Shown here in pieces: positions 10,794-28,084 of a DNA stretch of 32,041 nucleotides (the stretch's first letter is position 1; each line of letters starts with the position of its first letter). Both the position numbers and the translations under genes were made by a program. This DNA comes from Lysobacter antibioticus HS124 (GTDB lineage: Bacteria > Pseudomonadota > Gammaproteobacteria > Xanthomonadales > Xanthomonadaceae). Below the pieces are notes generated by a model. The model was not told the origin of the DNA, did no database searches, and was given only the letters and a program-made list of their open reading frames with translations. The stretch covers positions 10,209 through 42,249 of the forward strand of contig NZ_HG424569.1 in assembly GCF_000336385.2 (NCBI RefSeq), in the 5' to 3' direction.

Positions 10794-11933
10794 TCAGCGC
10801 TGCGGCTTGAACTCGATCGGGACGATCACGACGGCGGCGATGGGGCGGCCGTTGCGTTTGGCGGGGGCGAAGCGCCAGTTGCGTACGGTGGCGACGGCGG
10901 CGCGGTCGAGGTCGCGGTTGCCGCTGCGTTTGCCGATCTCGACGCGTTGCGGGCGGCCGTCGGCGCCGACGCGCACGCGCAGGGAGACCAGTCCGCCTTC
11001 GCCGCGGCGCAGGGCGTCGAGCGGGTAGGGCGGTTTCGGGCTGTGGCCGGGCAATGGGCGGGGTTTGGCGCTGGCGCCGCGCGGGGCGGTGTCGCGTTGC
11101 GCGCGCGGTGCGGCGACCGCGGGCGTGGCGTCTGTCGCGTCCGCGCTCGGGGCCGGCGGTTGGGCGGTGTCGTCGTCGCTGGTGCTCGGCGGGTTCGGCG
11201 GCTGCGGCGGCGCCAGCGGCGGGCGGTCCAGGCCGGGCGCGCCTTCGATCTGCTGCGACGAGCTTTCGCTTTCGATCTGGCGGTAGCCGTGCGATACGAC
11301 CAGCAGCACGGCGACCACGAACACCACCGCCAGGCCCAGCATCGGGATCCAGGCGGTTTCGGGCAAGGTGTGGCGGGTGAAGGCCGGCATCGGCGCGGCC
11401 AGCGCCAGCGGCTTGGGCGGCAGCGGTTTGACCGCGGTGACGTCGAGCGGCACGGCCTGGTTGGGGTCCATGTGCAAGGTGCTGATGCGGCCTTGGTTGA
11501 GCGCTTGCGCGACCTCGGCGCTGGCGCCGAGCGCGGCGGCCACCTCTTCCAGCGCGACCGGCGGCGGTGCGCTGCGCCGCTCCACGCCGCTGAAGCGGTG
11601 GCGGTTGTATTCGGCCCACAGGATCAGCACCGTCGCGGCGCCGACCGCGGTGGCGGGCAGCGCCAGCAGCAGGAAGGGGTCGATCTCGTGCTGGCGCAGG
11701 TACAGTTCGGCTTCGGTGCGGCGGATGCCGAACAGCCACATGAACAACGTGATCAACGGCACCCACAGGTAGAGGTAGATCGCCCAGAAGGCGCCGGTGG
11801 TCAGGCCCCAGAAGGTGCGCGGCAGCAGCGGCTGCGAGTACGGCCGTTGGATCAGCCGCGAGTCGTGCTTGTGCCGCCGAGAGCGGCGGGGCTGCGGCCG
11901 CTGCGGCACCTGGCCGGGCTTGGGCGTGCTCAT
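10794..11933 (-). CDS. pgaD: PgaD-type PNAG synthase subunit fused to a TonB C-terminal domain
   Basis: The 379-residue product is about 2.5 times the length of ordinary PgaD. Residues 30-170 are PgaD-like: two membrane helices (about 46-69 and 87-107), then the cytoplasmic tail containing VALEEVAAALGAS. Next come a third membrane helix (about 195-214), a Pro/Ala/Ser-rich linker (235-300), and a TonB C-terminal domain (300-379) with KPPYPLDALRRGEGG and VRNWRFAPAKRNGRP. That tail should be periplasmic. The ATG at 11933 overlaps the pgaC stop in an ATGA junction. In E. coli, PgaD is required for PgaC activity and the PgaCD pair is activated by c-di-GMP. The added domain could reach peptidoglycan, PgaA/PgaB or an outer-membrane protein; that role is inference. 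No frameshift joins the parts: one continuous frame encodes both. Confidence 0.88.
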   Translation of the reverse strand: MSTPKPGQVPQRPQPRRSRRHKHDSRLIQRPYSQPLLPRTFWGLTTGAFWAIYLYLWVPLITLFMWLFGIRRTEAELYLRQHEIDPFLLLALPATAVGAATVLILWAEYNRHRFSGVERRSAPPPVALEEVAAALGASAEVAQALNQGRISTLHMDPNQAVPLDVTAVKPLPPKPLALAAPMPAFTRHTLPETAWIPMLGLAVVFVVAVLLVVSHGYRQIESESSSQQIEGAPGLDRPPLAPPQPPNPPSTSDDDTAQPPAPSADATDATPAVAAPRAQRDTAPRGASAKPRPLPGHSPKPPYPLDALRRGEGGLVSLRVRVGADGRPQRVEIGKRSGNRDLDRAAVATVRNWRFAPAKRNGRPIAAVVIVPIEFKPQR

Positions 11934-13189
11934 CGCAGCCCCCGATCCGGGCTCACCCACACCGCGCGGGTGCCGCGGCGCTTGGCCAGCGCCTTGGGCA
12001 CTGCGGCCACGGTGGTGGTGAAGCTCAGCAGCCAGAACACCATCGGGTACCAGATCATCCAGTAGTAGTTGCGGCCCACGCCGGTTTCGTAGCGGCGGTC
12101 GATGACGATGCTGGCGGCGAACTGCAACAGGCAGATCATCGCCAGGATCACGCCGTGCCACGACGGCAGCAGGGTCGGCACGCGCAGCTGCTCGGGCAGT
12201 TCGAACACCAGGCCCAGCGCCCACAGCAGGATGATGAAGGCCATCATGTAGGCCCAGGCCAGGCTCAGCAGGTATTCGCCCAGCACCGCCCACATGCGGC
12301 GGCGGCGCCACGAGACCAGGTCGCGGGTGTGGCGCAGCAGCACTTCGACGCCGCCCTGGGCCCAGCGCAGGCGCTGCTTCCACAGGCCGCGCACGGTTTC
12401 CGGCATCAGGATGAAGCACATCGCATTGGGCTCGTAGCGGATGTCCCAGTGGTTCATCTGCAGGCGCCAGCTGATGTCGATGTCCTCGGTGACCATGCTG
12501 TCGGACCAGTAGCCGATCTGGTGCAGCGCAGTGCGGCGGAACGCGCAGATCACCCCGGACACCGTGAAGATGCGGCCGTACACGCGCTGGGCGCGCTTGA
12601 TCATGCCGATGATCGAGGCGAACTCGCCGACCTGCAGGCGGCCGAGCAGGGTCGATCGGTTGCGGATGCGCGGGTTGCCGGTGACCGCGCCCACGCGCGC
12701 GCCCGAGCACAGGTGCCAGACCATCCAGTGGGTGGCGTACTCGTCGAGCAGGGCGTCGCCGTCGATGCAGACCAGGTACTCCGAGCGCGCCGCCAGCGCG
12801 CCCATGCGCATGGCGTTGGCCTTGCCGAGGTTGCGGTCGAGGTGGACGACCCGCAGCGAGGGGTACTGCGCGGCGAGCAGGTTGAGCTTCTCGCCGGTGT
12901 CGTCGCCGCTGCCGTCGTTGATGGCGATGACTTCGAACGCGGGATAGCGCTGCGCCATCGCCGAGGCGATGGTCTCGCGGACGTTGTCGCCCTCGTTGTG
13001 GCAGGGGATCAGGATCGACACGAACGGCGTCGACTCCAGCGGCGGCGGATCGGTGCGGCCGCGGGCGTGGCGCTCGCGGCGCAGGTAGTAGTACAGCCCG
13101 CCCGCGATCCAGAAGAACGACATCACGATCGGGTAGTAGAAAGCGAATTTGAACGACACCGCAAGCAAGGCGCTGAGAACCTCGTACAT
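11930..13189 (-). CDS. pgaC: PNAG synthase, processive glycosyltransferase 2
   Basis: The product has 419 residues, close to E. coli PgaC. An N-terminal membrane helix pair precedes a cytoplasmic GT2 domain with NDGSGD (91-96), DGD (143-145), TEDID (234-238) and QRLRW (272-276), the D, DxD, TED and QxxRW set of processive beta-glycosyltransferases. C-terminal membrane helices follow at about 305-330, 345-365 and 375-395. It polymerises UDP-GlcNAc into poly-beta-1,6-GlcNAc and threads it through the inner membrane together with PgaD. It is third in the pgaABCD operon, 65 bp after pgaB and overlapping pgaD by 4 bp. Confidence 0.95.
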   Translation of the reverse strand: MYEVLSALLAVSFKFAFYYPIVMSFFWIAGGLYYYLRRERHARGRTDPPPLESTPFVSILIPCHNEGDNVRETIASAMAQRYPAFEVIAINDGSGDDTGEKLNLLAAQYPSLRVVHLDRNLGKANAMRMGALAARSEYLVCIDGDALLDEYATHWMVWHLCSGARVGAVTGNPRIRNRSTLLGRLQVGEFASIIGMIKRAQRVYGRIFTVSGVICAFRRTALHQIGYWSDSMVTEDIDISWRLQMNHWDIRYEPNAMCFILMPETVRGLWKQRLRWAQGGVEVLLRHTRDLVSWRRRRMWAVLGEYLLSLAWAYMMAFIILLWALGLVFELPEQLRVPTLLPSWHGVILAMICLLQFAASIVIDRRYETGVGRNYYWMIWYPMVFWLLSFTTTVAAVPKALAKRRGTRAVWVSPDRGLR

Positions 13190-13254: not shown

Positions 13255-15162
13255 TCAGCGTTCGATGTAGGGGAAACCGCGCGCGGACATGATTTCGCGC
13301 GCGTCGCGGGTCGAGGGGACGTCGTCGATGAAGTTGTCCGGGTACCAGGCCAGGTGGCGCACGCCGGCGGCCTGCAGGCGCCGCGCCATGGTCTTCAGCC
13401 GCTGCGCCGGGATCGGCTTGTTGTCGCGCCAGTCCACGGTCTGCAACTCGAACAGGGTCCGCGCCAGGCCGCGGGGCGAGCGCGCCACTTGCGCCACCAG
13501 CCGGTCCATCCAGGCCTGCGGCTCGCGGCTGTTCTCCATCCACGGCATCGCCATCACGGCGGTGTAGTCGTAGGCCTGGTTGAACGCGGCCAGGTTCTGC
13601 GCGAACCAGCGCTCGCTGTCCGGGCGCAGCACCGGCTCGGCGAACAGGTTGCGCACGGTGATCAGCTTCGGCCGCCACTTGCCGGCGGCGCGGGTCAGTT
13701 CCTGGGTGAATGCGATCAGGGCCTGGGTGCGCTGGGCCGCCTGTTCCGGCGCCTGGCCGCGCAGTTCGTCGTCGCGCAGCAGGGCGTCGTCGTGGAACAA
13801 CAGGCCTTCGCTGTAGCCGCTGACGGCGAGGTCTTCGTAGATGTCGGCGACGATCTGGCGCGCCTGCGGCTCGAACGGATTGAGGCGGAAGGTTTCCTTG
13901 GGGTTGCTGGCGGCGATGGCCAAACGGCGGCGCAGCGCGGCGTCGGGCAGCTCGAAGCCCAGCACCGGCAGCCAAGCGAACACCTTGACCCCGGCGCGGG
14001 TCTTCAGCTGCCAGGCGACCCGGTTGTACAGGTCGGCGCGCATCGGCAGGTGCCGATTGGGGAAGTACAGCGCGTCGGCCGAACCGTTGCCGTCGGGGTC
14101 GGCGAAGGCCTGCAGGAACACATGACTGGGGCCGACCTGCTTGACCCGCTCGATCAGCTTGTCGAGGTTGCGCGCCTGTTGCGCCGGATCGGCGTCGTAG
14201 ACGTAGTCCAGGTCGATCTGCAGCGCGCGCAGGCCGTCCAGGCCTTCGTCGTGGCGCAGTTCGTAGGCCAGGTCGTTGACGGTCGGGTTGTCGAACACCA
14301 GCAGCCGGGCGAGGCCGTGCAGGTCGCGGCGCAGGGTCTGGTGGCGGCCTTCCAGGTCGAAGGTGACCTGCATGCCGAGCTGGTCGGCGATGGCGTTGGT
14401 CTGGCTGTTGTAGGCCGCGTACGGCCACACCACCGATTGCGGGGCGACGCCGAGTTCGCGCTTGATCGCGGCGACGCTGTCGCCCAGGTCCTTGCGAATC
14501 CGCGCCAGGTACTCGGCCTCGGTCTCGTAGCGCTCGGCCTTGGGGTCCCAGACCCGGGTGATCGCCGCCGGCATGCTGTTGCCCTGCGGGTTGGAGGTCA
14601 CGCCGCGGTGCAGGGCGTGGCTGTGCGAGGCGACTTCGATCAGGCCCGAGGCCTGCATCTCGCGCAGTTGGTCCCAGGTGACGAAGTCGTCGTGGGTGAA
14701 CATGCGCGGGCCGTAGTCGACCTGCTGGTCGCGCGGCAGGTCGACCCAGGAGGTCACCACCGCCATCAGCGCCGGGTAACCGTAGGCGCGCAGCAGCGGG
14801 AAAGCGTGGGTGTAGATGCTGCGCAGGCCGTCGTCGAAGGTCAGCAGCACCGCCTTGGGCGGCAGCGGCTTTTCGCCGCGCGAGGCGGCGATGACCTGGC
14901 TCAGCGACACCGGGTGGTAGCCGTGGCCGGCCAGCCAGTCCAGGTGGGCGGCGAAGTTCTGGGTGCTGACCGCATAAGCGTCGGGATCGCCTTTGCGGGC
15001 GACGTCGTCGCGCACATCGTGGTAGCTCAGCACCAGCAATTCGTCGGCCTGGGCCGGCGCCAGCGCGGCCAGGGCCAGGGCCGCGGCGGCGAACAGGCTG
15101 CGCAGCGTGCGCGCGGCCCAGGCGTGGCGAGCGGCGGCGGGGAGTCGCAGATCCATGTTCAT
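13255..15162 (-). CDS. pgaB: PNAG de-N-acetylase / hydrolase
   Basis: The 635-residue product starts at ATG 15162 (MNMDL), 4-bp overlapping the pgaA stop, with GGAGAG just upstream. The N-terminal NodB-type deacetylase domain shows YHDV (47-50), TFDDG (108-112) and SHSHALHRG (179-187), the metal-binding Asp and His motifs. The C-terminal half is the PgaB glycan-binding/hydrolase domain, marked by GLLFHDDALLRDDE. The enzyme removes some N-acetyl groups from periplasmic PNAG so that it can leave through PgaA. The E. coli protein is a lipoprotein; here the signal peptide ends in an AQADE region with no cysteine, so a soluble periplasmic form or another anchor is expected. Confidence 0.94.
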   Translation of the reverse strand: MNMDLRLPAAARHAWAARTLRSLFAAAALALAALAPAQADELLVLSYHDVRDDVARKGDPDAYAVSTQNFAAHLDWLAGHGYHPVSLSQVIAASRGEKPLPPKAVLLTFDDGLRSIYTHAFPLLRAYGYPALMAVVTSWVDLPRDQQVDYGPRMFTHDDFVTWDQLREMQASGLIEVASHSHALHRGVTSNPQGNSMPAAITRVWDPKAERYETEAEYLARIRKDLGDSVAAIKRELGVAPQSVVWPYAAYNSQTNAIADQLGMQVTFDLEGRHQTLRRDLHGLARLLVFDNPTVNDLAYELRHDEGLDGLRALQIDLDYVYDADPAQQARNLDKLIERVKQVGPSHVFLQAFADPDGNGSADALYFPNRHLPMRADLYNRVAWQLKTRAGVKVFAWLPVLGFELPDAALRRRLAIAASNPKETFRLNPFEPQARQIVADIYEDLAVSGYSEGLLFHDDALLRDDELRGQAPEQAAQRTQALIAFTQELTRAAGKWRPKLITVRNLFAEPVLRPDSERWFAQNLAAFNQAYDYTAVMAMPWMENSREPQAWMDRLVAQVARSPRGLARTLFELQTVDWRDNKPIPAQRLKTMARRLQAAGVRHLAWYPDNFIDDVPSTRDAREIMSARGFPYIER

Positions 15163-17240
15163 TGCTCTCCCCAACGGAAGTTCAGATCGAAGCCGAGTCG
15201 TTCCTCGCGCTGGCCGTCGTAGACCGGGCGCGACCAGCTCAGGCCGTAGGTCAGCTTGCGGCCGGTGCCCAGCCCCCATTCGTGTTCGTAGCGCAGCTGC
15301 GGAATCCAGGCGCTGCCGTAGCCCTGCTGCCAGTAGGGGCCGGCGTAGGCGGTGAAGCGTTGCAGCAGGTGGCGGCTGTAGCGGCGCCAGGCGACGTGGT
15401 TCAGGCGCAGGCCGAGATTGAGCGAGGCGTCGCGGCTGGGGTTGAAGTAGGGCACGTCGGCATCGCGGCGGCTGGCGCGGCTGGCCGAGAGTTCGGCCAG
15501 GCCGTCGAGCTGCAGGTGCGGGCGGGTATAGGCGCGCTGGTCGAGCGACAGCGCGAACGCGCTGCGGCGGTTGTCGTCGCTGTAGCGCAGCTGTTGCACG
15601 CTGGCGGCGACCGCGGTGCGGTCGCTGGGCGTCCAGCGCAGGCCCAGGCTCAGCGCGTCGGCGTCGATGCCGGCGCGGCGCGCCTGCAGCGAAGCGTCCG
15701 GCGACTGCCGGTACCAGGACGCGCTGCCGCGCCAGGCGTCGTTGAAGCGCCAGCCGGCGTCGAGGTAATAGCCGGTGCGGTCGTCGCGGTCGAGCCAGCG
15801 GTCGCTGGCGCGGTCGACGCCGAACCCCAGGCTGAGCCGGTCGTAGGCGTACAGCGCGCCGACGCCCTGGCGGCGGTCGTGCACGCGTTCGCCCGGGTAG
15901 TCGGCCCAGGCGTCTTGCGCGTGCGCGGTGAGGCGCCAGCGATCGTGGATCAGCGGGCTGCGGATTTCGGCGCGGTGGGCGCCGTCGCGGCTGCCGAGCG
16001 GCGAGGTGCTGTCGCCGCCGCCGTCGGCGCGGCTGCGATGGCTCGAGGTCGACACCTGCCACTGCCAGCCCAGCCGGCTGTCCCAGGACTCGCGCATCTG
16101 CCGCACCTGCACGTCGCGTTCGCGGCGCGCCAGCAGCTCGTCGTGGATCGGCCGCGCCAGATCGACCCGGTCGTGTTCGAGGTAGGCGCCGATCTGGCCG
16201 ATCCGCGCGCCGACGCTGGTCGGTTCCAGGGTGCTGGCCATGCGGAAGCGTTCCAGCGCGCGCTCGGTCCAGCCGCGGCGCTGGTAGGCAACGCCGAGGT
16301 TGGTCTGCAGGCCGGCGTTGTTCGGGCCGATCGCCGCCAGCGCTTCCAGATCGCGCTGTGCGCCGACGGTGTCCTCGCCGTACAGGCCGACCATGATCAG
16401 GTTGGTGTCGGCGTCGTAGTGGCGCCAGTTGGCGTGGCTGACCTTGGCCCCGGGCACGCGTACGAAGGCGGGCTCGGCGGCCTTGATCTTCTGCAGTTGT
16501 CTCTTCGCGTCGTCGAAGCGCTCGGCCTCGGAATAGGCATAGGCCAGCTGCAGCTGCGAGTCGTGGTCTTCCGGCATTTCGCGCACGACCCGCTCCAGCA
16601 CCGTCGCCGCTTCCTCGGGGTGGCGCGCGGCCAGCAACGAGGCGCCGACCCAGGCCAGGGCGTACAGCGGCACCTGGACGCCTTCGGCCTGCAACTGGCG
16701 ATAGTTCTGCACCGTGTCGGCGTGGCGTTCGAGGATGTTGAGCATCACCAGCTCGTCGAAGCGCGTGCGCAGGTCGGCCTGGCGCTGGCTGTCGCTCTGG
16801 CTCTGGCGGTACTCGGCCATCGCGCTGCGCGCGGCGCGGATTTCCTCCAGCCGCTGCGCTTCGTTCTCCGGATACAGCCCGCCCCACACCACCATCCGCG
16901 CCAGGCGATTGGATTCCAGGCGCTGGCGTTCTTCGGCGCTGAACAAACCGGGACGTTCGCGGTACAGGCTCCAAGCGCGGTAGGCGTTGCCAAGATCGGC
17001 CAGGGTCAACACCTGCAGGCGATACAGCGCCTCGTCGCCGGGACGGACGGCGAGGCCGGCTTCGATCTGTGCCAGGGCCGCCAGCCACTGCCGGTCGGCG
17101 CGCAGGCGCTCGATCTCGGGCAGGGGGTTCAGGGGCTTGGGTTGACTCTCAGTGGCTGAAACTGACGAAAAAGGGCAGATTGAGCTCGCAGAAACCAAGG
17201 TGAAGGCAAGGGCGTAAGCAAGGCGATGCGTAATCGGCAT
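15159..17240 (-). CDS. pgaA: PNAG export outer-membrane porin with TPR domain
   Basis: The 693-residue product starts with a signal peptide (MPITHRLAYALAFTLVSASS, cleavage near residue 30). Residues 35 to about 360 are helical TPR repeats, with segments such as NLGVAYQRRGWTERALERFR. The rest alternates in the manner of an outer-membrane beta barrel and ends LGFDLNFRWGEQ, with aromatic residues near the terminus. This two-part design is that of PgaA, which captures deacetylated PNAG from PgaB and exports it. It is the first gene of the operon and divergent from the GH92 gene; a Clp/CRP site lies 56-71 bp upstream of its ATG. The ribosome site before 17240 is weak. Confidence 0.93.
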   Translation of the reverse strand: MPITHRLAYALAFTLVSASSICPFSSVSATESQPKPLNPLPEIERLRADRQWLAALAQIEAGLAVRPGDEALYRLQVLTLADLGNAYRAWSLYRERPGLFSAEERQRLESNRLARMVVWGGLYPENEAQRLEEIRAARSAMAEYRQSQSDSQRQADLRTRFDELVMLNILERHADTVQNYRQLQAEGVQVPLYALAWVGASLLAARHPEEAATVLERVVREMPEDHDSQLQLAYAYSEAERFDDAKRQLQKIKAAEPAFVRVPGAKVSHANWRHYDADTNLIMVGLYGEDTVGAQRDLEALAAIGPNNAGLQTNLGVAYQRRGWTERALERFRMASTLEPTSVGARIGQIGAYLEHDRVDLARPIHDELLARRERDVQVRQMRESWDSRLGWQWQVSTSSHRSRADGGGDSTSPLGSRDGAHRAEIRSPLIHDRWRLTAHAQDAWADYPGERVHDRRQGVGALYAYDRLSLGFGVDRASDRWLDRDDRTGYYLDAGWRFNDAWRGSASWYRQSPDASLQARRAGIDADALSLGLRWTPSDRTAVAASVQQLRYSDDNRRSAFALSLDQRAYTRPHLQLDGLAELSASRASRRDADVPYFNPSRDASLNLGLRLNHVAWRRYSRHLLQRFTAYAGPYWQQGYGSAWIPQLRYEHEWGLGTGRKLTYGLSWSRPVYDGQREERLGFDLNFRWGEQ

Positions 17241-17545: not shown

Positions 17546-20500
17546 ATGTCGTTGGGTCATAACGCTCGCCGCGGTCGCGGCCGGCCGCAGGATGTCGCAA
17601 GCCGTCGGATCGCACGCCGTTGTTCGATCGCGGTCGCGATCGCATTGGCCTGGCCGGCGTTCGCGGCGGCGCCGCGCAGCTTCTCGACCTCGTTCGAAAC
17701 CGGCGAAGCGGTACCCGCAGCCGCCCCCGACGTGCCGGGCTCGCTGCATGTGGACGGTGGCCCGGACGCGGGCGCGGCCTTGACCGCCAAGCCAGGCGTC
17801 GGCTTCACCGGATTGCGCTCGCTGCGCTATCAAGGCGAGGGCGGGCACGAACAACGCCTGCACGCGTTCGACGTCGATCTGGCGCTGAGCAAGGACAGCG
17901 TGCTGTCCTATCGCGTATTTCCCTTGTCGGACGAGCGCGTGTCGGGACGGCGCGCGACGGTGCCGGCCGACGGCCTGCGCAACACTTCCGGTTTCGTTGC
18001 GGTCGATCTGGAATTCGACGACGGCAGCCGGCTGTCGCAGCGCGCGCCGCTGGACCGGTACGGCCAGCCGCTGACCGCGCGCGGCCAGGGGTTGGCGCGG
18101 CTGCTGTATCCGGACCAATGGAATGCCGTCTCCAGCCGCATCGGCGACGTCGCGGCCGGACGCCGCGTGCGGCGCATCCTGGTCGTGCACGATGCCGACC
18201 ACGCTGCGCCGTTCCGCGGCTGGCTGGACGATCTGCGCATCGAGCGCATGCCGGCGGCGAAGGGCCCGGCGCCGCGGCCCAGCGACTACGTCGACACCCG
18301 TCGCGGCAGCAATTCCAATGCGCGCTTCTCGCGCGGCAATACCTTCCCGGCGGTCGCGTTGCCGCACGGTTTCAATTTCTGGACCCCGACGACGAACGCC
18401 GGTTCGCACTGGATCTACCAGTACCAGGAGCGCAACGGCGACGACAACCGGCCGCGCCTGGAGGCGCTGGCGCTGTCGCACGAGCCCAGCCCGTGGATGG
18501 GCGACCGCCAGACCTTCCACGTCCTGCCGGCGATCGGTACCGCCCGGCCCGAGTTCGACCGCGGCAAGCGCGCGCTGAGCTTCGGCCACGACCAGGAGAC
18601 CGCGCGCGCCGACTACTACCGGGTGCGCTTCGACAACGGCCTGGTCGCCGAGCTGACCCCGACCGATCATGCCGCGATGCTGCGCTTCACTTTCCCGGAC
18701 GCGAACGCGCAATTGCTGTTCGATCATCGCGACGAGCACGGCGATATCCGGCTGAATCCCGACGACGGCAGCCTGAGCGGCTGGAGCGACAGCCGCAGTT
18801 CGCTGTCGACCGGCGCGACCCGGTTGTACTTCTACGCGCGTTTCGACCGGCCGGTGCGCGGCGGCGAGCGCCTGTCGCGCGAAAAGGGCCGCGACCGCGT
18901 GTCGGCCTGGTACGGCTTCGACCTCGGCGCCGAGCCGTCGCGGCAATTGACGATGCGCATCGCCACCTCGCTCATCGGCGTCGAACAGGCCAAGCGCAAC
19001 CTGGCGCTGGAAATCGGCGCCGACGAGGGCTTCGACGCGGTGCGCGAGCGCGCCCGCGCGGCCTGGGACGCCAAGCTCGGCGCGGTGCGCATCGAAGGCG
19101 CGCCCGAGCACGAACGCGCCACCTTGTACTCGAACCTGTACCGCCTGTTCCTGTATCCGAACAGCGGCTACGAGAACACCGGCACCGCAGAACAGCCGGT
19201 GTACCGCTACGCCAGCCCGTTCGCGCCCCCTGCCGGCGCCGATGGCGATACCGCCACCGGCGCGACCGTGGTCGACGGCAAGGTGTTCGTCAACAACGGC
19301 TTCTGGGACACCTACCGCACCAGTTGGCCGGCCTATGTCTTGCTGGCGCCGACCCAGGCCGGCGAGATGATCGACGGCTTCGTCCAGCAGTACCGCGACG
19401 GCGGCTGGATCGCGCGCTGGTCTTCGCCGGGTTATGCCGACCTGATGGTCGGCACCAGTTCCGACGTCGCCTTCGCCGACGCCTGGCTCAAGGGCGTGCG
19501 CAATTTCGACGTGCGTTCGTTCTATCAGTCGGCGATCCGCAATGCTTCCAGCGTCAGCCCGATTCCGGGCGCGGGGCGCAAGGGCATCGAGCGGGCGATC
19601 TTCACCGGCTACACCGACACCACCGTCGGCGAGGGCCTGTCCTGGTCGATGGACGGTTACATCAACGACTTCGCCATCGGGCGTTTGGCCGCGGCGCTGG
19701 CGCAGGAGGCGGCGGCCGACGATCCCTATCGCGCCGGCTACGCCGACGATGCGGTCTATTACCGCAATCGCGCGCTGGGCTACGTCAACCTGTTCCATCC
19801 GCAACTGGGTTTCTTCGTCGGTCGTCATCGCGACGGCCGCTGGCGCTACACCGCCAGCGAGTTCGACCCGCTGCGCTGGGGCGGCGACTACACCGAGACC
19901 AACGCCTGGAACATGGCCTTCCACGCGCCGCAGGACGGTGCCGGCCTGGCGGCGCTGTACGGCGGCCGGGTCGCGCTGGGCAACAAGCTCGACCTGTTCT
20001 TCGCCACGCCCGGCCTGTTCGAGGTCGGCAGCTACGGCCAGGTGATCCACGAGATGCTGGAAGCGCGCGACGTGCGCATGGGCCAGTACGGCCACAGCAA
20101 CCAGCCCTCGCACCACATTCCCTACATGTACGCCGCGGCCGGCCAGCCGTGGCGGACGCAGGAGAAAGTGCGCGACATTCTCGACCGGTTGTACGTCGGC
20201 GGCGAGATCGGCCAGGGCTATCCCGGCGACGAGGACAACGGCGAGATGTCGGCGTGGTGGCTGTTCAGCGCCGCCGGTTTCTATCCGCTGCGGATGGGCT
20301 CGCCGGAGTACGTGATCGGCGCGCCGCGCTTCGAGCGGATGAGCATCCGCCTGGAGAACGGGCGCGAGTTGCGCATCAACGCGCCCAAAGTCGGGGCGCG
20401 CAACCGTTACGTGCAGTCGCTGCGGGTCAACGGCGAGCCCTGGGACCGGTTGACGCTGCCGCACGAACTGCTGGCGCAAGGGGCGGTGCTGGATTTCCGC

Positions 20501-20986
20501 ATGGGCCCGTCGCCGTCGAACTGGGCCAGCGCGCCGCAGGCGCTGCCGGAATCGTTGAGCGCCGACGGCGAGAAGCCGACGCCCTGGCGCGACCTGGGCC
20601 GGCGCGACAACGCGACCGTGGCCGGCATCGCGGCCAAACAGGCGGCGGCCTTGTTCGACGACGACTCCGGCACCGGCGTGCGCCTGAACGTGCCGATGCC
20701 GTCGATCGCCTGGACCTTCAAGCGTCCGGCGACGGTGCATCTGTACACGCTGACTTCCTCGGCCAAACGCGGCGACGCCCGGGCCTGGGCCTTGCAAGGT
20801 TCCAACGACGGCGAGCAGTGGACCACCCTCGACGAGCGCAGCGGCCAGACCTTCGCCTGGCGCCGGCAGACGCGTGCGTTCGCGCTGGCGCAGCCGGCGA
20901 GCTACAGCCGCTACCGCCTGCGCCTGGTCGGCGAGGGCGGCGCGATCGAACTGGCCGAGGTGGAGTTGATCGGCGAAGCGCCGTGA
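17546..20986 (+). CDS. Secreted GH92 alpha-mannosidase with C-terminal F5/8-type domain
   Basis: The 1146-residue product starts at ATG 17546 with GGGAG 6 nt upstream. It has a long Arg-rich signal peptide ending at about residue 42 (VAIALAWPAFAAA). Residues 45-240 form a beta-rich, probably carbohydrate-binding domain. The GH92 catalytic part starts near residue 248 with YVDTRRGSNSN and PHGFNFWTPTTN, and includes the family hallmark GYPGDEDNGEMSAWWLFSAAG near 890. A galactose-binding-like (F5/8 type C) domain occupies about 1015-1146. GH92 enzymes are calcium-dependent exo-alpha-mannosidases acting on N-glycans and fungal or yeast mannans. For a predatory or mycolytic soil bacterium this would fit feeding on fungal wall mannan (inference). 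It is divergent from pgaA and apparently monocistronic. Confidence 0.92.
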   Translation: MSLGHNARRGRGRPQDVASRRIARRCSIAVAIALAWPAFAAAPRSFSTSFETGEAVPAAAPDVPGSLHVDGGPDAGAALTAKPGVGFTGLRSLRYQGEGGHEQRLHAFDVDLALSKDSVLSYRVFPLSDERVSGRRATVPADGLRNTSGFVAVDLEFDDGSRLSQRAPLDRYGQPLTARGQGLARLLYPDQWNAVSSRIGDVAAGRRVRRILVVHDADHAAPFRGWLDDLRIERMPAAKGPAPRPSDYVDTRRGSNSNARFSRGNTFPAVALPHGFNFWTPTTNAGSHWIYQYQERNGDDNRPRLEALALSHEPSPWMGDRQTFHVLPAIGTARPEFDRGKRALSFGHDQETARADYYRVRFDNGLVAELTPTDHAAMLRFTFPDANAQLLFDHRDEHGDIRLNPDDGSLSGWSDSRSSLSTGATRLYFYARFDRPVRGGERLSREKGRDRVSAWYGFDLGAEPSRQLTMRIATSLIGVEQAKRNLALEIGADEGFDAVRERARAAWDAKLGAVRIEGAPEHERATLYSNLYRLFLYPNSGYENTGTAEQPVYRYASPFAPPAGADGDTATGATVVDGKVFVNNGFWDTYRTSWPAYVLLAPTQAGEMIDGFVQQYRDGGWIARWSSPGYADLMVGTSSDVAFADAWLKGVRNFDVRSFYQSAIRNASSVSPIPGAGRKGIERAIFTGYTDTTVGEGLSWSMDGYINDFAIGRLAAALAQEAAADDPYRAGYADDAVYYRNRALGYVNLFHPQLGFFVGRHRDGRWRYTASEFDPLRWGGDYTETNAWNMAFHAPQDGAGLAALYGGRVALGNKLDLFFATPGLFEVGSYGQVIHEMLEARDVRMGQYGHSNQPSHHIPYMYAAAGQPWRTQEKVRDILDRLYVGGEIGQGYPGDEDNGEMSAWWLFSAAGFYPLRMGSPEYVIGAPRFERMSIRLENGRELRINAPKVGARNRYVQSLRVNGEPWDRLTLPHELLAQGAVLDFRMGPSPSNWASAPQALPESLSADGEKPTPWRDLGRRDNATVAGIAAKQAAALFDDDSGTGVRLNVPMPSIAWTFKRPATVHLYTLTSSAKRGDARAWALQGSNDGEQWTTLDERSGQTFAWRRQTRAFALAQPASYSRYRLRLVGEGGAIELAEVELIGEAP

Positions 20987-25767: not shown

Positions 25768-26184
25768 GGCAAGGGCCGAGTCGAGCGATGGAGGAGCCGG
25801 GTAATGCGGAGCGATGCGAATGCGGGCGCCCACAGCCGGCGGAGTGGATCGATTCTTCAACGCGCGCTGTCGCGGTGTCGAGAGAATGCGCGCGCCGTTC
25901 GCGGAACTGCTAAACGTCGTCACAGAAAAGCGAGTGCGCCTGCTTCCATTCTTGCTTGCGAAAAACGCGGCCATGCATCGCGTTTTCGACCGTAGCCAGG
26001 TTACGGTTTTGTTGCAGGTTCCGCCCGTTGCGCCGTTCCTCCCCCGTTGTAGCCGATGCAAGCACCGAACGTGCGGCCCTCGTCATGCGGGGCGTCGTAT
26101 CGACGCGTCCGGTCTGCCCAACAGACCCTGCGGTCCGCCGCGCGCAATGCGTGCGCGGAGCGCGTTGCCGGATGCGTTGTTCTC
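25768..26184. other. Divergent intergenic region with an inverted repeat
   Basis: This 417-bp stretch separates the divergent methyltransferase-like and glycosyltransferase genes and should hold both promoters. CGAAAAACGCG (25959-25969) and CGCGTTTTCG (25979-25988) form an inverted repeat with one unpaired A around GCCATGCAT, a candidate operator. Frames extending the two genes into this region lack ribosome sites and protein-like composition. I cannot define -35/-10 boxes with confidence. Confidence 0.4.
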
Positions 26185-27375
26185 ATGCTGAGCCAGTTCT
26201 TCTTGACCGGCCTGGTCGGTTTCTCGACCTTGATCCTGTTGTGTTGCCTGATCTTTCTCGCCGGTTGGGCGGTGTGGCGCGTCTTGCGGCGGCCGCCGTC
26301 GCCGACGTTGGCCGACTATCCCTTCGTTTCGATCCTGGTGCCGTTCTACAACGAGCCGCCGGCGTCGTTCCTGCGTACGCTGGAGGCGATCGAGAACGCC
26401 GAATACCCCGGCCGGATCGAAGTGCTGCTGGTCGACGACGGGTCCACGAACGCTACGCCGCAGGCGCTGGCGCAGTGGCTGCAGCCGCCGCGCGAAAAGT
26501 GCTATCGCCTGGTGTCGTTGGCGCGCAACGGCGGCGCCAAGGGCCTCGCCCTGGATGCGGCCTTGCCGCAGCTGTCGCCGGAGTCGGACGTGGTCACGGT
26601 GATCGACAGCGATACGGTGATCCTGCCGTGCTCGTTGCGGCGCGCGGTCGAGGCCCTGTACGCCTCGCCGCGCCATGCCGCCGCCTGCGGGCTGATCGTG
26701 CCCGACGAGCGCCATCGCTCCTGGCTGCACCGGCTGCAGTTCTACGAGCATGTCGGGGCGCTCGCGGCGATCCGCTATGTGCAGAGCAAGATCGGTGTGG
26801 TCAACGTGGTCGCCGGGGCGTTCTCGTTGCACCGCACCGCGGTGATCCGCGAACTCGGCGGCTGGGGCGACTGGCTGGGCGAGGACATTTCCTGGACCTG
26901 GCGCGCCTTCGCCCACGGCTATTCGATCGCCTACGCGCCCGACGCGATCGCGTACACGATCTGCCCGACCACGCTGCAGGGCCTGTTCCGCCAACGCCGG
27001 CGCTGGGCGCGCGGACGGCTGGAGTCGTTCCGCGTCGCCTGGCGCATCTCCTGGGCGCGGACCATGACCATGCTGCCGTGGTGGCTGCTGTGGGCGCAAT
27101 CGGCGCTGGTGCCGACCTTGCTGCTGTTGATCGCCGGCGCGTTGGTCTATCGCAGTCCCAGCCTGCTCGCGATCGCAGGACTGAACTGGTCGCTGATGGC
27201 GCTGCTGAATTTCGTCTCGATGATTCAGGCGCGCACCCGGCTGGGCCTGAGACCGTTGGACCTGGCCCTGGTCTCGGTGTGCAACACCGTCATCGACGTG
27301 CTGCTATTGCCGGCCAACCTGATCGGCTTGCTCGACGAACTGCGCGGCGGTCGCAAGACCTGGCTGACGCGCTGA
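26185..27375 (+). CDS. Membrane processive glycosyltransferase, family 2
   Basis: With the start at ATG 26185 the product has 396 residues; the frame is open upstream to 26056, but that part is Arg-rich and not membrane-like. An N-terminal double membrane segment (6-28) precedes the GT2 domain with VDDGS (83-87), DSD (141-143), GEDISW (232-237) and QRRRW (270-274), the complete catalytic set of processive beta-glycosyltransferases such as PgaC, hyaluronan synthase and NodC. Three C-terminal hydrophobic stretches follow. Only 7 bp separate it from the NodB-type deacetylase gene, so the two form an operon. The likely product is a beta-linked GlcNAc-type polymer or oligomer that is then deacetylated (inference). 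It is distinct from the true PgaC in this window. Confidence 0.85.
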   Translation: MLSQFFLTGLVGFSTLILLCCLIFLAGWAVWRVLRRPPSPTLADYPFVSILVPFYNEPPASFLRTLEAIENAEYPGRIEVLLVDDGSTNATPQALAQWLQPPREKCYRLVSLARNGGAKGLALDAALPQLSPESDVVTVIDSDTVILPCSLRRAVEALYASPRHAAACGLIVPDERHRSWLHRLQFYEHVGALAAIRYVQSKIGVVNVVAGAFSLHRTAVIRELGGWGDWLGEDISWTWRAFAHGYSIAYAPDAIAYTICPTTLQGLFRQRRRWARGRLESFRVAWRISWARTMTMLPWWLLWAQSALVPTLLLLIAGALVYRSPSLLAIAGLNWSLMALLNFVSMIQARTRLGLRPLDLALVSVCNTVIDVLLLPANLIGLLDELRGGRKTWLTR

Positions 27376-27382
27376 GCGGCGC

Positions 27383-28084
27383 ATGGACTGGCACGGATTC
27401 CTGCAGGCCCGGCCACAGGCCTATCTCGGCCGCGGCGCCGCGGACCGGCGCGTACTGGCGCTGACCTTCGACGACGGACCCGGTCGCGCCACGCCGGCCC
27501 TGCTCGATGCCTTGCGCGAACTCGATGTGCGCGCCAGCTTCTTCTGCGTCGGCGCGGCGATGCGCGCGCAGCCAGCGTTCGTACAGCGATTGCTCGATGA
27601 AGGGCACGAACTGGGCAACCACTCCGAGCGCCATGCCGATGCGCGCGGGATCGAGGCCGGGCAGTGGATGCGCGAGGAAGTAGAGCCGACGGCCGAGGCG
27701 CTGGCGGCGGCCGCGCGCGACCGGCCGGTCGCGGCGGCGCCGTTGTTCCGCCCGGCCTACGGCGAACTCGATGCCGCGCAATTCGACGCGCTGGCCGCGG
27801 CCGGCTACGTCGTGGTCGGCTGGTCGGTCGACCCGCGCGACTGGTTGGAACCGGACGCGCCGGGCTATGTCTCCTGCGTGGTCGAGTCCGTATTGGCGCG
27901 TATCCACCCCGGCGCGATCGTGCTGCTGCACGACGGCGACGACGAAAGCGGCGGCGCGCGCCACGGCATCGTCGAGATCGTGCGTCGGCTGGTGCCGGCG
28001 CTGCGGAACCAGGGCTATGGCTTGGTAAGGGCCGGCGAACTGATGGCGGCGACGGGCGCGGGCCGGACGACGGCGATAAGCTGA
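27383..28084 (+). CDS. NodB-type polysaccharide / chitooligosaccharide deacetylase, cytoplasmic
   Basis: The 233-residue product has all five NodB-homology motifs: TFDDGP (28-33, Asp30 and Asp31), HELGNHSERH (75-84, metal-binding His80 and His84), RPAYGE (123-128), GWSVDPRDW (146-154) and VLLHDGD (180-186). Such enzymes remove N-acetyl groups from GlcNAc polymers or oligomers with a divalent metal. There is no signal peptide or membrane anchor, unlike PgaB and peptidoglycan deacetylases. A cytoplasmic location, as for rhizobial NodB, is therefore indicated. It directly follows the GT2 gene and has no clear ribosome site of its own, suggesting translational coupling. Substrate is unproven. Confidence 0.88.
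   Translation: MDWHGFLQARPQAYLGRGAADRRVLALTFDDGPGRATPALLDALRELDVRASFFCVGAAMRAQPAFVQRLLDEGHELGNHSERHADARGIEAGQWMREEVEPTAEALAAAARDRPVAAAPLFRPAYGELDAAQFDALAAAGYVVVGWSVDPRDWLEPDAPGYVSCVVESVLARIHPGAIVLLHDGDDESGGARHGIVEIVRRLVPALRNQGYGLVRAGELMAATGAGRTTAIS

Follow-up and report, generated by a model that had tools for sequence, protein, structure and literature searches.

Why should PgaD, the regulatory subunit of the PNAG synthase, end in a TonB C-terminal domain, and what could the added domain do for the enzyme? To our knowledge it has not been settled how the inner-membrane PNAG synthase is aligned with the outer-membrane protein PgaA, and here a known outer-membrane docking domain was found attached to the regulatory subunit of the synthase, and retained. 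In the window, by which we mean the whole 32,041-nucleotide stretch of Lysobacter antibioticus HS124 DNA that was analyzed, positions 10794-11933 of the minus strand form one open frame of 379 codons plus a stop. The earlier note had read this frame as a PgaD part extended by a third membrane helix and, beyond a linker, by a TonB C-terminal domain, and analysis with Pfam, NCBIfam and hydropathy bore out both that architecture and its exact coordinates. The fusion is real, and the answer that we put forward, with a chance of being right that we judge evenly balanced, is that the protein serves the PNAG synthase as its PgaD subunit and carries, in addition, a passive tether across the periplasm.

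The PgaD part (residues 27-158, comprising two membrane helices and a cytoplasmic tail; 11460-11855, minus strand) was recognized by TIGR03940 (3.1e-35, 121 bits against a cut-off of 31.45) and by PF13994 (residues 28-156, 2.1e-24, 86.6 bits, cut-off 27). At the other end, where the earlier note had placed a TonB C-terminal domain in residues 300-379, Pfam recovered PF03544 at residues 299-376 (10806-11039, minus strand; 4.9e-21, 75.4 bits, cut-off 24.6), with a genome match to the same bases and a match to TIGR01352 at residues 302-377 (5.1e-19). The third membrane helix (about residues 192-214; 11292-11360, minus strand) and the predicted periplasmic linker (about residues 215-298; 11040-11291, minus strand) lie between these domains. 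Hydropathy windows in the protein begin at residues 52, 87 and 196, the first two marking the membrane segments of the PgaD region, and three membrane segments were likewise present in all 17 fused proteins that are described below. An AlphaFold model made from the single sequence of the window protein alone had block-mean pLDDT values of 91-95 for residues 321-370 and was poor elsewhere (mean 57.1), the PgaD part and a helix at residues 192-226 falling in its low-confidence regions. When this model was compared with the PDB by Foldseek, the best 15 of 263 matches were C-terminal domains of TonB or TonB paralogues, of which only the top two passed an E value of 0.001, and the fold matches included TonB bound to FoxA, FhuA and BtuB. 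Consistent with this, the PDB sequence relatives of the fusion protein were TonB domains only (7 sequences, E up to 0.01).

The location of the added domain follows from the expected topology of the chain. Both the N- and the C-terminus of E. coli PgaD are cytoplasmic, and the third helix, which starts about 30 residues past the PgaD tail, should redirect the chain outward and so place the TonB C-terminal domain in the periplasm. The linker between this helix and the domain is 83 residues long in the window protein and 83-102 residues across the 17 fused proteins, which would in principle be long enough to span the periplasm. The description of this linker as Pro-rich in the earlier note holds for the window species (23% Pro) and fails as a conserved trait, the proline content ranging from 8 to 23% over the 17 proteins and that of alanine from 12 to 31%.

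In order to determine how widespread the fusion is, PF13994 was searched in overlapping samples from the family (198 genomes), genus (20), order (299), class (369) and phylum (398) of the window and in the genera of two relatives (52 and 4 genomes), and at every PgaD locus either the tail was read or the frames were scanned for a TonB C-terminal domain. A PgaD match was found in 170 distinct genomes; the match was below cut-off in five of these (G181, G486, G682, G782 and G1159), and in three genomes (G142, G782 and G797) it lay near a contig end. Five loci with no PgaD match in the box (L122, L123, L126, L233 and L234) are represented only by a scan for TonB C-terminal domains in frames of at least 60 residues. 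Seventeen of the 170 PgaD-bearing genomes carried the fusion, all with the same architecture. They comprised 15 of the 20 genomes of the window's genus, including a second genome of the window species, and two from a second genus (g28), in which the remaining 21 of 23 PgaD-bearing genomes are unfused. Thus the survey of PgaD homologues that the earlier note had called for returned the fusion in 17 of the 105 PgaD-bearing genomes of the family, and in none of the 65 PgaD-bearing genomes outside it. Five carriers besides the window were rechecked with Pfam and both domains were present in each.

The occurrence of the same architecture in 17 genomes, one of them the second genome of the window species, rules out chance or an assembly artefact, and the single open frame in 17 of 17 rules out the erroneous merging of two genes. 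An internal restart before the third helix was also rejected, as the nearby methionine is missing from some relatives in the alignment. In five of the 20 genomes of the window's genus, pgaABCD encodes an unextended PgaD and lacks a free-standing gene for a TonB C-terminal domain within the approximately 12 kb that were read; the pga operon in general can thus do without the arm, which counts against the tether. No remnant of the domain was detected at an E value under 0.5 in 11 unfused loci. At one distant locus (L217), where one of two models matched a TonB C-terminal domain, the PgaD frame is 141 amino acids long and ends 17 residues past the match, and there is no fusion. Separately, two 315-amino-acid frames (L230 and L231) from a distant family encode PgaD-like proteins whose C-terminal tails run to about 200 residues; a Pfam scan of L230 gave no further domain above cut-off, and these tails are a different PgaD extension.

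The fusion gene stands last in a pgaABCD operon on the minus strand, and the products of the other three genes all scored above their equivalog cut-offs. These were the following: the PNAG synthase PgaC (11930-13189; TIGR03937, 630 bits, cut-off 422), the deacetylase/hydrolase PgaB (13255-15162, with the start picked by eye; TIGR03938, 803 bits, cut-off 322) and PgaA, the outer-membrane export porin with TPRs (15159-17240; TIGR03939, 407 bits, cut-off 367; PgaA_barrel, 2.2e-50). The stop codon of pgaC overlaps the start of the fusion gene in the sequence ATGA, and the same overlap was present at all 17 fused genes. No lipobox was seen in PgaB of the window, and we considered whether the arm is a replacement for a missing PgaB anchor. 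A strict lipobox was absent from PgaB in all 14 fused rows that were readable, a count without two rows from the second genus, and also from 25 of 26 readable unfused rows, the sole match preceding the likely start; two other unfused rows matched only a loose pattern, and E. coli PgaB matches. Since the lipobox is lacking in fused and unfused PgaB alike, its absence is not specific to the fused rows, and the idea of a replacement anchor was rejected as an explanation.

Phylogenetic trees were used to trace the history of the fusion. In a tree of TonB C-terminal domains (53 rows and 77 columns, built from eight of the 17 fused domains together with 45 non-fused ones of seven genomes, the remainder of 71 non-fused matches being left out as not retrieved or too short, and with a bootstrap that had not settled), the eight fused domains formed one clade with support of 96/91; no parent of the fused domain emerged from this tree. 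The 63-row trees covered 59 of the 105 PgaD-bearing genomes of the family and four from the order, without the second genome of the window species. In that of the PgaD domain, 16 fused rows fell on one side of a branch, weakly (75/91), and in that of PgaC the fusion label needs two changes, as it does in the trees of PgaA (43 rows) and PgaB (44 rows, by a quick method). In the PgaC, PgaA and PgaB trees the two g28 carriers were placed near an unfused genus (g32) and away from the window's genus, and in the PgaC tree two unfused g28 genomes fall elsewhere. The fused PgaD therefore accompanies two separate PgaA/PgaB lineages. The single clade of fused TonB C-terminal domains, set against the division of the carriers into two groups in the pgaA, pgaB and pgaC trees, makes a single origin of the fusion probable, with subsequent loss or transfer of the fused gene. 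The operon itself looks mosaic, in that PgaA of the fused genus groups with another genus (g52), PgaB of the fused genus stands apart from that of the unfused species of the same genus, and PgaC unites the genus.

At the outer membrane, the C-terminal domain of TonB is known to recruit a short beta-strand of a partner protein. We propose that the third helix of the fusion turns the chain into the periplasm, where the long linker would carry this type of docking domain, and that the domain would hold the activated synthase beneath its export partners, most likely PgaA and possibly PgaB or peptidoglycan, so that the polymer would be made where export is possible. No pulling by ExbBD would be expected. 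The PgaD half retains the pattern W-A-x-Y-N-x-x-R-F after helix two, as in E. coli PgaD, and for this reason the usual PgaD role is expected of it. In the available text of one report, PgaD binds PgaC, c-di-GMP stabilizes PgaD with PgaC, and PgaD and c-di-GMP together activate PgaC (PMC8461298); the PgaD half of the fusion would accordingly bind PgaC and switch it on with c-di-GMP. The physical link between synthase and envelope that was suggested in the earlier note thus stands as the best reading in view of the true fusion and the linker of 83-102 residues, and it carries with it a topology that is predicted.

As the pore for PNAG, PgaA is the natural candidate for the partner in our proposal. 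It should be noted that the occurrence of the fused PgaD with two PgaA/PgaB lineages weakens the case for a co-evolved interface with PgaA, and that the N-termini of PgaA, which by eye are similar in fused and unfused species, count against PgaA as the partner. More tentatively, and with less confidence than we place in the tether itself, a TonB-type arm on the c-di-GMP-responsive subunit may join the synthase to the PgaA pore, in which case c-di-GMP could control the assembly of a machine that spans the envelope. An alternative that we consider unlikely, and yet the best of those that compete with the passive tether, is that the domain positions the synthase by fixing it to the cell wall, with no outer-membrane protein involved. 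The retention of one TonB-type arm alongside two PgaA/PgaB lineages suits a partner of this kind, which lies outside the operon, but within the Ton system the available text of one study shows peptidoglycan binding for ExbD and not for the C-terminal domain of TonB (PMC10771500).

The third helix was examined for the motor contact of a TonB energy transducer. According to the available text of one study, the membrane helix of the motor-driven proteins TonB and TolA has the motif Ser-x3-His-x6-Leu-x3-Ser, of which the His is essential (PMC12215075). Neither [ST]-x3-H nor the looser [STA]-x3-H was present in the third helix of any of the 17 fused proteins; a Ser-His does sit at the outer end of this helix in 12 of the 17, outside the spacing of the motif. 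Among 33 other proteins with a TonB C-terminal domain from seven sampled genomes, six, from five of these genomes, had [STA]-x3-H, and so the scan was able to detect a motor-type helix in the family; the other 27 also do not have it. This control has a gap, in that no protein with [STA]-x3-H was seen in the window's own genome, where a contig end truncates the probable canonical TonB. A proline-flanked pattern for the D-box, which is the ExbD-binding element of TonB as described in part of another paper (PMC10907165), had no match in the 17 proteins, but this pattern finds just one of the six [STA]-x3-H proteins. The missing Ser-x3-His led us to favor a passive trans-periplasmic tether over an energy transducer. 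On the motif evidence, the arm would be a TonB docking head without the known motor contact of TonB, TonB-like in how it works without being a TonB.

These data bear directly on energized export, in which the arm would couple to ExbBD and the proton gradient would open PgaA or another receptor. The fold of the C-terminal domain and a linker of the needed length are what such a mechanism calls for, but in addition to the absence of Ser-x3-His from the third helix in 17 of 17, the arm is anchored on the third of three helices rather than on a single N-terminal anchor, and no TonB plug domain was among the Pfam matches of the window's PgaA. We regard energized export as improbable.

Selection on the different parts of the fusion was estimated from dN/dS by the Nei-Gojobori method, which gives rough values on stretches as short as these. 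For six close pairs, dN/dS was 0.05-0.31 for PgaD, 0.17-0.57 for the TonB C-terminal domain and 0.28-1.32 for the linker, and for four wider pairs the corresponding values were 0.25-0.57, 0.25-0.61 and 0.75-1.64; the value for the TonB C-terminal domain was below 1 in all ten pairs computed. Between the window protein and a carrier of the second genus, identity was 57% in the TonB C-terminal domain and 12% in the linker. The third helix was weakly conserved, its identity being 27, 35 and 54% in the three wider pairs that include the window protein, and a juxtamembrane block ending in E-G-x-P-G-x-D-R-P in the alignment is common within the genus and mostly absent from the two g28 carriers. From these comparisons, the TonB C-terminal domain is conserved to about the degree of PgaD and no more tightly, and the linker changes quickly at a held length. 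The weak conservation of the third helix and the want of tighter constraint on the docking domain than on PgaD weigh against the tether.

A long and drifting linker would be expected to conduct a signal poorly, and this makes it hard to credit a sensor, in which the domain would sense the condition of a partner in the outer membrane or periplasm, for PgaD to relay to PgaC. In favor of a sensor are the activation of PgaC by PgaD with c-di-GMP, as given in the available text of PMC8461298, and the start of the third helix about 30 residues after the PgaD tail, and we give it a chance as slim as that of energized export. Equally slim is the chance that the fusion is tolerated as a bystander and that the arm matters little for PNAG, for although fused and unfused operons both occur within one genus, all 17 carriers have a complete arm, and its TonB C-terminal domain has dN/dS below 1 in all ten pairs. 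The passive tether accordingly remains the best supported of the readings, at a likelihood close to one half.

The resemblance of the fusion protein to known proteins differs along its length. PgaD of E. coli K-12 (137 amino acids) is of the same family (TIGR03940/PF13994), has the same W-A-x-Y-N-x-x-R-F pattern and is encoded at the same last position of pgaABCD, but it stops after the tail at residue 137, whereas the window protein continues for about 220 more residues through a third helix and a linker to a TonB C-terminal domain. TonB (PF03544/TIGR01352) is like the window protein in the sequence and fold of the C-terminal domain and in having a membrane helix and a long linker; in contrast to TonB, the helix of the window protein is the third of a PgaD, lacks Ser-x3-His and is encoded within a PNAG operon. 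By BLAST, the free-standing domains most similar to the fused one belonged to paired short TonB C-terminal domain proteins (44-64% identity over the pair proteins, the best match having 64%), which occur as a close pair in all seven genomes sampled, have no [STA]-x3-H in the helices that were read and, unlike the fused domain, have no PgaD part. A tandem pair of short TonB C-terminal domain proteins was also observed beside a serS-like gene (identified by eye) in one fused and one unfused genome (L259, 4395-6000, and L260, 4473-6000). As an analogy in the way of working only, ExeB/GspB of type II secretion, a TonB-like assembly factor of the inner membrane, reaches through the periplasm with such an arm to contact the outer-membrane secretin ExeD for assembly, as described in the part of the paper available (PMC4098917); ExeB is not a synthase subunit.

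The earlier note had stated that no function was described for this arrangement, and our search of titles and abstract openings, with supplements outside its scope, agreed in finding no published description of a PgaD-TonB fusion. A survey of exopolysaccharide operons reported PgaB fusions, and the term 'TonB' occurs zero times in its main text (PMC7112194); the fusion was not seen in the available text of a 2025 study of TonB/TolA evolution (PMC12204202). The available account of the PGA cluster of Lysobacter capsici CK09 describes a gene with a PgaD domain as not homologous to genes of the reference species and does not mention TonB (PMC10384520). As far as the literature was searched, PgaD-TonB is thus a real, conserved and undescribed variant of PgaD, and the genera that have both fused and unfused operons offer a natural comparison for the coupling of synthase and envelope.

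Several other genes in the window were noted. Downstream of the fusion gene are two adjacent serine hydrolases of the beta-lactamase family (PF00144; 7793-8983 and 9212-10453, minus strand), which were rejected as part of the system because, in the loci scanned, the first was confined to the same species and its sister, and the second to the same species alone. Upstream of pgaA, on the opposite strand, is a glycoside hydrolase family 92 protein (17546-20986, plus strand; PF07971, 4e-138). About 9 kb from the pga operon there is a second GT2 glycosyltransferase, which also matches Chitin_synth_2 (26056-27375, plus strand), followed directly by an apparent NodB-type polysaccharide deacetylase that was recognized by eye (27383-28084, plus strand), and this pair (26056-28084) is perhaps another locus for a GlcNAc polymer.
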